Source: Phycisphaerae bacterium (GTDB lineage: Bacteria; Planctomycetota; Phycisphaerae; UBA1845; UTPLA1). From it: a DNA stretch of 64,000 nucleotides. The notes below the pieces were generated by a model. It did no database searches. It had not been told where the DNA came from and saw only the letters and a program-made list of their open reading frames with translations. Positions 4,802 through 12,171 of the stretch are shown piece after piece (within the stretch, counting starts at the first letter, position 1; every line of letters starts with the position of its first letter). The stretch spans positions 248,001 through 312,000 of the forward strand of contig JAHBXN010000005.1 in NCBI GenBank assembly GCA_019636475.1, given 5' to 3'. A program made the translations under genes and the position numbers.

Positions 4802-5887
4802 CTACGGCGAAATACTGCAAGAGAAAGCCATTCCATCGACGCCGGACAAAGCTTGTCCGCTGAAGTAGATGATCTGGCTTTCGGTTTCGCCCCGCGGAAG
4901 CACGATCGATCCGAACTGAAAGTAAATCGGATGCCAGCGGTCCTTTGTCGCACTGAAGACGCGTGTCCAATTTTCGCCGTCTCGCGAGATCCAGAGGCCG
5001 GCTTCGCGGCTGAGATTGACGCTCGACACCTCGATCGACGTGGAGAGGGCATACACGCCGCCGAACCGCGCGCCGTAAATGCAACTGCCGTCGAGTTCCT
5101 GCAATCGCTCGACGCGCGCGGTGGCCTTTTCGAAACGGATCACGGCGTTTTTCTCTCGCTCGGTGTCGGTGCCGTAGACCAGGGTGTCGCCGAAATCGAA
5201 AACCTGCACCGCCCGAAAGCGCTGCTCGCCCTTTGCAATCCAGTCGAAGTCGCGCAGGTCCTCGGACAGACGACCAATGCCCGGCTCGTGATTGTGGTCG
5301 CCGGCGAGCACCCAGTAACACCTCAGCCGTTCATCGAACTGAAGATTGTGCAGGTGGAGAATCGATCCGCCCTCGAAGACCCGCGCGATTCGATAGGATC
5401 GGCCTTGATCATCGGAGACGAACAGGCGCACCGGCAGGCCGTGCGCGGTTCTGGAATTGTACTCGCCCCAGAGGACGCGATCGTTGGGGCCGACTGTTAT
5501 CGTCATCGGCGGCGCGAGTCTTTGACCGCCGTCTTCGATTCGCGCAGGGATCATGTCCGGATCACCCGACGCGGCGTAATAAACAAACTCGCGGTTCGAA
5601 GCGATGATCGTGTCGTCGGTTGTCACACCGATCGCCTTCACTTCGTGACGGAGCAGACGCGAAGCCAATCGCGAGCAGGAGGCAAGCCGGCGCAGCGCCG
5701 ATTGCGGCATCGCGCAGCGGAGCTGCCATGATCGACCGTTGTCAGTCGATCGATAAATTCTGTACCCGCGCGATACATAGACATCTCCGCCGCGCGAGAC
5801 GCTCAGGATGCGTCCGGGGCCGATCGGCGCGGTCTGAATCCGCTGTCCTGATGCACTCGATTCCTGACCGCAACTGAGATTCACCAT
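4802..5887 (-). CDS. Asp-box (BNR/sialidase-like) beta-propeller protein
   Basis: This 361-residue protein carries three Asp-box motifs of the form SxDxGxxW/Y: STDNGRSW (47-54), SDDQGRSY (158-165) and SRDGENW (301-307). They sit in a repetitive beta-rich sequence expected for a six- or seven-bladed propeller. No signal peptide is visible, so it is probably cytoplasmic. Its ATG overlaps the last 7 bases of the asparagine synthetase gene, which strongly suggests translational coupling. Asp-boxes occur in sialidases but also in many non-enzymatic propellers. The catalytic arginine triad of a sialidase could not be identified, so no sialidase activity is claimed. The gene lies about 3.4 kb from the nonulosonate synthesis gene, which makes a link to surface-glycan metabolism possible but unproven. 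Confidence 0.75.
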   Translation of the reverse strand: MVNLSCGQESSASGQRIQTAPIGPGRILSVSRGGDVYVSRGYRIYRSTDNGRSWQLRCAMPQSALRRLASCSRLASRLLRHEVKAIGVTTDDTIIASNREFVYYAASGDPDMIPARIEDGGQRLAPPMTITVGPNDRVLWGEYNSRTAHGLPVRLFVSDDQGRSYRIARVFEGGSILHLHNLQFDERLRCYWVLAGDHNHEPGIGRLSEDLRDFDWIAKGEQRFRAVQVFDFGDTLVYGTDTEREKNAVIRFEKATARVERLQELDGSCIYGARFGGVYALSTSIEVSSVNLSREAGLWISRDGENWTRVFSATKDRWHPIYFQFGSIVLPRGETESQIIYFSGQALSGVDGMAFSCSISP

Positions 5888-9301: not shown

Positions 9302-11197
9302 ATGGAGAATGCAGCAGATCTGACAGCCAAGCCGCGGGACGACGACCAAACGATCCGAAGACGAGATGACACGCACGTTCTTGCCGTCGTACTGGCGCGG
9401 GCAGGCAGCAAGGGGCTGCCGTCGAAAAACTCGCTTCCGATCAACGGCCGGCCGATGATCGCGTACACGATAGCTGAAGCGAAGGCCGCCACGTCGATTG
9501 ATGCGGTCTGCGTCACCACGGATTCCAGTCATTGCGAGGCCGTCGCCCGGGAGATGGGTGTTTATGTCGTCGAGCGCCCGGCGGAACTTGCGAACGATAC
9601 GGCAACGGTCGATTCAGCGGCACGCCATGCCGTTGAGACTTACGAGAAATTCCGCCGTCCGGTCACGCACGTCGTGCTGCTATACGGGAACGTGCCGGTT
9701 CGCGCCCCGGAGATTATCGATCGTGCGGTCTCGAAACTTCTGCAACACGGGTGCGATTCCGTTCGCAGCGTGACGCCGGTCGAAAAGCAGCATCCGGACT
9801 GGATTCACCGTCTTGAAGGCGATCGGCTTGTCCAGTATCGCCGAAACTCCATCTACCGCAGGCAGGACCTCGAGCCACTCTATTATCACGACGGCGCGGT
9901 CGTCGCGGTGTCGAGAGCGTCGCTCTTTAGAGTCCGAAATGACGACGCCCATGCGTTTTTCGGGATCGATCGGCGTGCCGTTATTTCGAGCGGCGGACCG
10001 ACCGTTGACGTAGACTCCGCCGATGACCTGAAGCTGGCATCAGCTATTCTGTCCCGGACTGATGAATCAGCGGCACCGCCGCGTGACTATGCTCCTGCGA
10101 CGCGCGTGGTTCAGATTGGAGACCGTCTGATCGGTCCGATGCAGCGGACATTCATCATTGCTGAAGCCGGCGTGAATCACGACGGTTCAATCGACAAAGC
10201 CAGACAACTGATTGACGCGGCGCGCGAAGCCGGCGCGGACGCCGTCAAATTTCAATGCTTCCGAGCCGACCGGCTCGTTGCGGCCGATGCGCCGACCTGC
10301 GACTATCAAACGATTCACGACGCCGGGGCAACCGATCAGCGCACAATGCTTCGGCGACTCGAACTCACGCCTGAAAACTTCAGGCAACTGGCGGAATACG
10401 CCCGCAGCGTCGGCTTGATTTTCCTGGCGACGCCGTTCGGCATCGAGGAACTGGAATTTATCGTCAACGAAATCGGTGTACCCGCGATCAAGATTGCATC
10501 GCCCGACATCATCAACGTCCCGCTGCTTGCCAATGCGGCGGACACAGGCAGGCCACTCATTCTCTCCACTGGCGCGAGCGACAACGCGGAGATCGAGTCT
10601 GCAATCTCACGGCTGAAGAATGTCGGTGCGGGCGATCGGTTGATACTGCTTCACTGCGTCTCTTCATACCCCACGCCGCCTCAATGCGCGCGACTCGCAA
10701 GAATCCGCCAAATGAGTTCCCGATTCGGCATGCCCGTCGGATTCAGCGATCACGTCGACGACGTCGCCATTGGCGCTGCCGCAGTTTATGCCGGGGCGTG
10801 CGTTCTCGAAAAACACATCACGCTCGATCGCACCGCGACCGGACCGGATCATTTCTTCTCTCTCGACCCAGATCAATTCAGAAACTACGTCGCGGCGGTG
10901 CGGACTGCCGAGGCGGCCCTCGGTGACGGCCGCACTGCATTGGATCCGCGCGAATTGCAGGTCCGGGAACGTGCCCGCGGTCGCGTAGTCGCGAGCCGGA
11001 CAATTCGCGCCGGCGATCTGTTTACGCCGGACAATCTCACGATTCAGAGGGCGTCGCGCGGACTCTGCGCCTCAGAATGGGAAACCATTATCGGTCGGCA
11101 GGCCTCGATGCCAATCGAGGCGGGCGGGCCGATCACGCGGGCGTCAGTTCGGAGCCTCGCCCAGGAAGAGACCGGCGTTGGATCTCTGCGGAAATAG
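9302..11197 (+). CDS. Bifunctional CMP-nonulosonate synthetase / nonulosonate synthase fusion (NeuA-NeuB-like)
   Basis: A single 631-residue chain joins two sialic-acid-type enzymes. Residues about 25-250 are an acylneuraminate cytidylyltransferase with the nucleotide-binding LARAGSKGLPSKN motif (31-43) and a PTVDVDSADDL end. Residues about 270-630 are a NeuB-family synthase: IAEAGVNHDG (286-295), VKFQ, KIASPDIIN (397-405), HCVSSYPTPP (451-460), GFSDH (480-484), and a C-terminal SAF domain with CASEWETIIGR. The synthase condenses phosphoenolpyruvate with a six-carbon amino sugar; the other half activates the product with CTP. The substrate could be the neuraminate, legionaminate or pseudaminate precursor. 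The two enzymes are normally separate and act in the opposite order. A 114-base spacer separates it from the divergent desulfurase gene. Confidence 0.9.
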   Translation: MENAADLTAKPRDDDQTIRRRDDTHVLAVVLARAGSKGLPSKNSLPINGRPMIAYTIAEAKAATSIDAVCVTTDSSHCEAVAREMGVYVVERPAELANDTATVDSAARHAVETYEKFRRPVTHVVLLYGNVPVRAPEIIDRAVSKLLQHGCDSVRSVTPVEKQHPDWIHRLEGDRLVQYRRNSIYRRQDLEPLYYHDGAVVAVSRASLFRVRNDDAHAFFGIDRRAVISSGGPTVDVDSADDLKLASAILSRTDESAAPPRDYAPATRVVQIGDRLIGPMQRTFIIAEAGVNHDGSIDKARQLIDAAREAGADAVKFQCFRADRLVAADAPTCDYQTIHDAGATDQRTMLRRLELTPENFRQLAEYARSVGLIFLATPFGIEELEFIVNEIGVPAIKIASPDIINVPLLANAADTGRPLILSTGASDNAEIESAISRLKNVGAGDRLILLHCVSSYPTPPQCARLARIRQMSSRFGMPVGFSDHVDDVAIGAAAVYAGACVLEKHITLDRTATGPDHFFSLDPDQFRNYVAAVRTAEAALGDGRTALDPRELQVRERARGRVVASRTIRAGDLFTPDNLTIQRASRGLCASEWETIIGRQASMPIEAGGPITRASVRSLAQEETGVGSLRK

Positions 11198-11295: not shown

Positions 11296-12171
11296 ATGTC
11301 ACAGGCAGATGCACTAACGGGGAAGGCACTGGTCGATGCCGCGATTTCGGATGTCGGCGAGATCGCGACGCTGCCGGAAGTAACGGTCAAGATCATACAA
11401 ATCGTCGAAAATCCAAAGTCTACGGCGCGCGACCTGCACGAAGTCATCAAGAATGATCCGGCGTTGTCCGCTCGCATATTGAAGGTAGTCAATTCGGCGT
11501 TTTACGGGCTTCCCGGACAAATTGCGAGCATCGATCGCGCGATCGTGCTGCTCGGTCTCTCGGCCGTGAAGAATATCGCCATCGCCGCCTCCATGACGCA
11601 TCTCTTTAACAGCGGCCCGGCAATCGAAGGCTTCAGCGGATCCGAAGTCTGGAAGCACTCGATCGGCACCGGCGTCGCCGCTCGCATGCTGTCGGCCGCA
11701 CAAGGCCGCCCGACTGTTGAGGAGAGCTTCCTCGGCGGCATCATCGCCGATCTCGGGCTGCTCGTGGAACGCCAGGTTTTCCCGAAGCAACTCGCCGAAG
11801 TCATCGCCCAACTCGATGCCGACGGCGGCGACTTCTGTGAGCTGGAGCAGCAGGTCATCGGCGCGGATCATCAGGCCTTTGGGGCGGCGCTCGCGGGCAA
11901 ATGGCGGTTTCCGCAGCCGCTTTGCACGACCATCGGTTATCACCACAAACCCCACGTCCTGGCGCCGGCAATGCGCGAACTCCCCACACTGGTCTGCATC
12001 GCCGACATCCTCGTCAGTCGGCTGGGCATGGGCTTCTGCACCTACGGCGAAGACATGGAGATTCCGATGGAATTTCTTGACGTCGTGAAACTGACGCCTG
12101 AGGCCGTACAGAATGTGATGGATCAATTGCCCGAGCAGGTGGCACTCGTCGAAAATATCTTCGCCTCCTAA
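11296..12171 (+). CDS. HDOD domain signalling protein
   Basis: The 291-residue protein is almost entirely an HDOD domain, a helical relative of HD phosphohydrolases that usually lacks catalytic metal ligands. Characteristic segments are IATLPEVTVKIIQIV, NDPALSARILKVVNSAFYG, IDRAIVLLGLSAVKNI and SFLGGIIADLGLLV. Such proteins act in stress, cell-cycle or motility signalling, often with two-component partners, but none is adjacent here. The ATG at 11296 follows a GAGG ribosome site 7 bases upstream. It stands 98 bases after the nonulosonate fusion gene and may be read from the same transcript. Confidence 0.88.
   Translation: MSQADALTGKALVDAAISDVGEIATLPEVTVKIIQIVENPKSTARDLHEVIKNDPALSARILKVVNSAFYGLPGQIASIDRAIVLLGLSAVKNIAIAASMTHLFNSGPAIEGFSGSEVWKHSIGTGVAARMLSAAQGRPTVEESFLGGIIADLGLLVERQVFPKQLAEVIAQLDADGGDFCELEQQVIGADHQAFGAALAGKWRFPQPLCTTIGYHHKPHVLAPAMRELPTLVCIADILVSRLGMGFCTYGEDMEIPMEFLDVVKLTPEAVQNVMDQLPEQVALVENIFAS

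Follow-up and report, generated by a model that had tools for sequence, protein, structure and literature searches.

The neuAB fusion gene

The window, the whole 64-kb stretch of DNA that was analysed, carries a gene, here named neuAB, whose product joins an N-terminal NeuA-like half to a C-terminal half made up of a NeuB barrel and a SAF domain (Table 1). Pfam places CTP_transf_3 at residues 28-193 (5e-20), NeuB at residues 303-544 (1.1e-79), and SAF at residues 562-616 (4.9e-10). The score on PF02348 (72.7 bits against a cut-off of 22.6) assigns the first half to the CMP-nonulosonate (CMP-NulO) synthetase family, and PF03102 and PF08666 are likewise over their cut-offs. In a PDB sequence search, CMP-Neu5Ac synthetase aligns to residues 27-252 (2e-19) and Neisseria meningitidis SiaC/NeuB to residues 271-615 (8.4e-49). 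These matches bear out the initial annotation, which read the gene as a NeuA-NeuB fusion with the activating enzyme in front, and the stop or frameshift between positions 10,000 and 10,150 that it named as fatal to this reading is absent from the frame.

Table 1. Features of the neuAB region, with positions counted from the first letter of the window.
Feature	Position	Strand	Evidence
ORF with Asp-box-like repeats	4802-5887	-	repeats seen by eye; no Pfam family at 1e-4
neuAB fusion gene	9302-11197	+	ATG-to-TAG open frame, 631 aa; both domain families; single copy
NeuA-like CMP-NulO synthetase domain	9377-10051	+	residues ~26-250; PF02348, PDB 1eyr and 6ifd, conservation
Inter-domain linker	10052-10108	+	19 residues (251-269), computed from BLASTP coordinates
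NeuB synthase barrel	10109-10933	+	residues ~270-544; PF03102, PDB alignment, alignment columns
SAF domain	10985-11149	+	residues 562-616; PF08666; R583 at the Neisseria R314 column
HDOD protein gene	11296-12171	+	PF08668 (1.7e-56); 98 bp downstream of neuAB

The gene is the sole match to either half in the 4.41-Mb source genome (E 0.001), and the match in the genome assembly is the same unbroken frame. Independent genomes show the domain order and the linker again, which makes a sequencing error very unlikely, and the independent fused relatives rule out a frameshift or artefact. A viral or mobile origin was also rejected: an exact-peptide scan of viral_contigs returned no relative, and the 105 matches in plasmid records all have less than 60% identity, the 15 listed being two-piece matches of 31-36%. 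An AlphaFold model (11 rows) was confident for the NeuB half and poor for the NeuA half, with a mean pLDDT of 67.4 overall, and no claim made here rests on it.

Distribution and origin of the fusion

Matches to neuAB occur in 60 of the 61 genomes of the order, and an unbroken NeuA-NeuB frame was verified in 16 of the 61, the source included. Loci were fetched from 40 of the 60 other genomes, chosen partly for fused or strong matches; together with the source locus they comprise 16 fused genes, 18 adjacent same-strand gene pairs, and 7 stretches with NeuB and no NeuA. For the 20 unfetched genomes, the genome search gave matches that were separate, single, or broken in frame, or no match at all. 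Another 20 loci, taken from the class and phylum and picked for strong or fused matches so that their counts are not frequencies beyond the order, yielded 10 fused genes, 8 adjacent pairs, and 2 NeuB-only stretches. In broader samples, 85 of 150 genomes of the class have a match at 1e-30 and 24 of 294 genomes of the phylum at 1e-75. Other NeuA-NeuB fusions, which the initial annotation had proposed to look for, thus occur in the order and elsewhere in the class and phylum. Linkers are 5-38 aa long among fused relatives with a full NeuA alignment, leaving aside the fused G023 and G043, in which NeuA aligns only partly.

In every one of the 26 unfused pairs inspected in the phylum whose genes share a strand, neuA directly precedes neuB; the genes overlap by 4 bp in six pairs, and in five they are in frame with nothing but a short, stop-containing stretch between them. 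In pairs so arranged, the loss of one stop or of one or two bases is enough to fuse the genes, with NeuA in front. Judging from these pairs, the NeuA-first order of the fusion is a copy of the neuA-neuB gene order, and the reversal of pathway order, to which the initial annotation had drawn attention, carries no meaning in itself. Comparison with relatives shows a genuine fusion with an unremarkable origin: neuA and neuB are neighbours and often overlap, and stop loss or a small indel between them has joined them repeatedly. Between the fused and unfused states, the NeuB tree calls for a minimum of 12 changes and the NeuA tree for a minimum of 10, both being quick trees with many weak forks. 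As placed on the NeuA tree, at least two unrelated NeuA/NeuB types are fused separately, since the fusions of one group (families f35/f72) carry a different NeuA that falls outside the 39-row clade (SH-aLRT 99) holding the source.

Fusions of consecutive pathway enzymes suggest that the two steps act together, and in this case a fixed 1:1 ratio of expression, together with local hand-over, is probably the main benefit. That two unrelated pairs of the same enzymes have been fused separately in one phylum offers ready-made single-chain catalysts for donors of the CMP-sialic-acid type. Leptospira NeuB is likewise a NulO synthase joined to a further enzyme of its pathway, the partner there being a C-terminal phosphatase-like domain rather than an N-terminal CMP synthetase (PMC3438082). 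A search of mostly non-subscription papers, including the accessible parts of PMC6137143, PMC1924603, and PMC6200933, found no description of a NeuA-NeuB fusion.

The NeuB half and its sugar substrate

We aligned the NeuB half with N. meningitidis NeuB and 68 other NeuB rows, using residue numbers (including Gly133, Glu134, Asn184, and R314) and residue roles that we take to be those of the Neisseria enzyme. The columns of E288, K316, Q318, T377, K397, S400, S482, H484, H505, D516, and the SAF residue R583 are retained in neuAB. With barrel and SAF over their cut-offs, and ten barrel columns and the SAF Arg kept, the half belongs to the NeuB/NulO synthase family. As in NeuB/SiaC (PDB 1xuu), barrel and SAF are complete and the columns of the metal His pair, Lys, Gln, Thr, and SAF Arg are preserved; unlike NeuB/SiaC, the protein is fused behind NeuA, Pro401-Asp402 replace Gly133-Glu134, and Ser454 stands for Asn184. 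The change from Gly-Glu to Pro-Asp lies near sugar C2 and may bear on which sugar is made. A non-Gly residue together with Asp occupies these columns in 51 of 53 NeuB sequences of the class (41 of the order and 12 of other families), the other two (G023 and G043) having Ala-Glu. Of eight NeuB sequences from other parts of the phylum, four have Gly-Glu, two Gly-Asp, and two Ala-Glu, and Asp or a non-Gly residue is also found at this pair in other phyla. The literature search returned nothing useful on Glu134.

NeuC gives ManNAc in known pathways. The source genome encodes a NeuC (369 bits against a cut-off of 235.9; PF02350; G000:C13:75495) that is unlinked to neuAB and 33.5% identical to a neuC of other families, and NeuA, NeuB, and NeuC, the gene set of the Neu5Ac pathway, are thus all present. 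Outside the source's family, neuC follows neuB in 25 of 26 fetched loci of the order, the exception (G034) stopping at a contig edge; in the source's own family, the NeuC genes sit elsewhere than neuAB. The NeuB/SAF half would condense phosphoenolpyruvate with a ManNAc-like hexose, probably derived from UDP-GlcNAc via the unlinked NeuC, to form a nonulosonic acid, which the NeuA half would then join to CTP, producing CMP-NulO.

It is conceivable, if doubtful, that Pro-Asp marks an unusual substrate, such as mannose (which would lead to Kdn) or a sugar with another C2 substituent. The prevalence of the altered pair within the class is consistent with this, as is a NeuB active-site study that names the Gly/Phe position as setting C2 specificity (PMC7371886); the order-wide linkage of NeuC and the occurrence of Asp or a non-Gly residue in other phyla argue against it. 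Use of the NulO as a substitute for Kdo on lipid A was considered and rejected because the genome contains both KdsA (358 bits) and a true KdsB (223 bits; G000:C4:34555), each apart from neuAB. The NeuA half itself scores 20.4 bits on KdsB, below the cut-off of 155.2, and WaaA is present order-wide.

Flagellin as the likely acceptor

A Maf-like gene shares the locus in 7 of the 12 same-class loci from other families, and several of the other five are short contig ends. The commonest layout in these sister families is maf - radical SAM - neuA - neuB - neuC - HDOD, and one Maf-like protein of the class that was scanned matches both MptE-like (138 bits) and Maf_flag10_N (30.3 bits). Within the order, neuA or neuB lies within about 6 kb of an MptE-like gene in four genomes (G017, G018, G022, and G028). 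An MptE-like protein is found in 59 of the 61 order genomes, the source included, and is missing from G048 and the fragmentary G054 (77%); the flagellin N-domain is also found in 59, missing from G048 and the fragmentary G057 (55%). G048, a single contig, lacks NeuB, an over-cut-off NeuC, the MptE-like protein, and flagellin, and retains KdsA, KdsB, and WaaA; this joint absence is a single event in a genome scored 72% complete. Among the seven loci of the f35/f72 fusion group, whose ORFs were scanned in part, at least three have flagellin genes and at least two an MptE-like gene.

The genes of a Maf system are present in the source genome, as an MptE-like protein (138 bits; G000:C6:331343) and flagellins. 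This Maf-like protein leaves the Maf N-terminal model unmatched at 1e-4, is 42% identical over 633 aa to a relative with a Maf N-terminal match, and has a short PDB match to 5mu5 (5.6e-6, 51 residues). One flagellin gene is grouped with FliD and FliS and a second lies near other flagellar genes; the neuAB, neuC, maf-like, and flagellin genes are all mutually apart, with the maf-like gene far from the flagellar genes. Maf enzymes use CMP-activated NulO to glycosylate flagellin, and Neu5Ac is accepted by one of them (PMC11339370). In keeping with such systems, the source genome has a Maf/MptE-like protein as the likely consumer of CMP-NulO; unlike them, its maf-like gene is unlinked, and the acceptor is predicted.

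We consider it probable that neuAB encodes a bifunctional, NeuC-fed CMP-NulO maker. The linkage in sister families, the near-universal co-occurrence of Maf/MptE-like proteins and flagellin, and the joint absence from G048 point to flagellin O-glycosylation, in which a glycosyltransferase of the Maf/MptE-like kind would most likely take this CMP-NulO as its donor. The link proposes near-universal glycosylation of flagellin with nonulosonate in the order.

Surface glycans and neighbouring genes

The initial annotation had pointed to a surface glycan, which is possible, although flagellin is better supported. Here, CMP-NulO would go to a surface polysaccharide, S-layer, or exopolymer glycan, and the Maf-like protein would have another donor or role. 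In several sister genera of the same family, neuA is missing from this place and a different NeuA lies inside a glycosyltransferase cluster, among methyltransferase-like and deacetylase-like genes (these latter names given by eye), which would give the sugar a route into another glycan as well; the source genome, too, has DegT and CapD-like sugar genes. However, the order loci compared share no conserved glycosyltransferase next to neuAB, the transferase linked in same-class families is Maf-like, and NeuB, the Maf-like protein, and flagellin are missing together in G048, all of which makes delivery to a surface glycan unlikely.

Beside the second type of NeuA, five sister genomes encode a protein of about 535 aa (L134:9310-10917 on the plus strand; L137, L139, L140, and L141) without a Pfam match at 1e-4, which is a candidate transferase. 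The HDOD family (F1) follows neuAB or neuABC in 27 of the 40 fetched order loci, and does so in other families of the class as well. The asnB-like family appears in 3 of 48 clustered stretches around neuAB, the source included. The asnB gene, the Asp-box protein, and a distant DegT had at first been taken as hints of a nonulosonate pathway; none is generally conserved around neuAB, the Asp-box protein has no Pfam family, and the DegT falls below both the PseC and the LegC cut-offs, and all three were rejected as pathway members.

Alternative sugars and the NeuA half

An improbable alternative holds that the product is legionaminic or pseudaminic acid rather than a ManNAc-derived acid. The nearest NCBIfam model for the NeuA half is PseF, but at 100.2 bits the match is far below the cut-off of 205.7; similarly, the DegT of the window scores best on PseC (332 bits) but does not reach the PseC cut-off. 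The three DegT proteins of the source genome (282, 193, and 216 bits) stay under the LegC cut-off of 420 and under the PseC cut-off as well, so that none counts as a LegC-type aminotransferase, and PseB finds its closest match in a CapD-like protein of 675 aa (177 bits against 407.75). This comparison of pseudaminate genes covered PseB, PseC, PseF, and PseI. For the NeuB half, NnaB (TIGR03569) is the nearest model, at 349.7 bits (cut-off 399.65), ahead of PseI at 257 bits (cut-off 340.25). In the order loci compared, neuABC has no conserved Pse or Leg neighbour. In the f35/f72 fusion group, a LegC-like gene (397 bits against 420) at one locus and a WbuX-type amidotransferase at another suggest a sugar of the legionaminate type.

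Like NeuA (1eyr) and PseF, the NeuA half has the fold family, an N-terminal ARxxSKGxxxKN stretch, and a DxD near the C terminus; unlike them, it is fused before NeuB and reads LLYGN, as does its subfamily, in place of the LLQPTS of 1eyr, to which it is distant (74 bits). R33, K42, D74, D238, and D242 are invariant in all 54 aligned NeuA domains. The proposal that both motif sets are intact therefore holds for the catalytic residues, which are largely kept, and fails at Pro401-Asp402, Ser454, and LLYGN. LLYGN could be taken to mean that one half is inactive, so that the chain is a synthase whose NeuA remnant serves regulation or structure, or the converse. This is very improbable, as neuAB supplies the only NeuA and NeuB of the genome, and across the 39 subfamily sequences conservation reaches at least 95% at 36 NeuA positions.

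Further genes near maf and flagellin

Of 15 order loci examined, 13 have a radical-SAM/SPASM protein of about 540 aa next to the Maf-like gene (maf-like loci L164-L177, for example L175); such a protein is also encoded at L132:8353-9930 on the minus strand, and it is not beside the maf-like gene in the source genome. It may modify flagellin or the sugar. A bolder and rather improbable proposal is that, in this class, a divergent NulO synthase with Pro-, Thr-, or Ser-Asp in its active site, repeatedly fused to its CMP synthetase, makes an undescribed NulO for Maf-like flagellin decoration, perhaps with the radical-SAM protein as partner, and that the fusion channels the acid to CTP. In the source genome, a cytidylyltransferase-like/PfkB protein and a family 2 glycosyltransferase are encoded upstream of the flagellin-FliD-FliS group (L191:5012-7949), and because of these genes the flagellin may carry more than a NulO.
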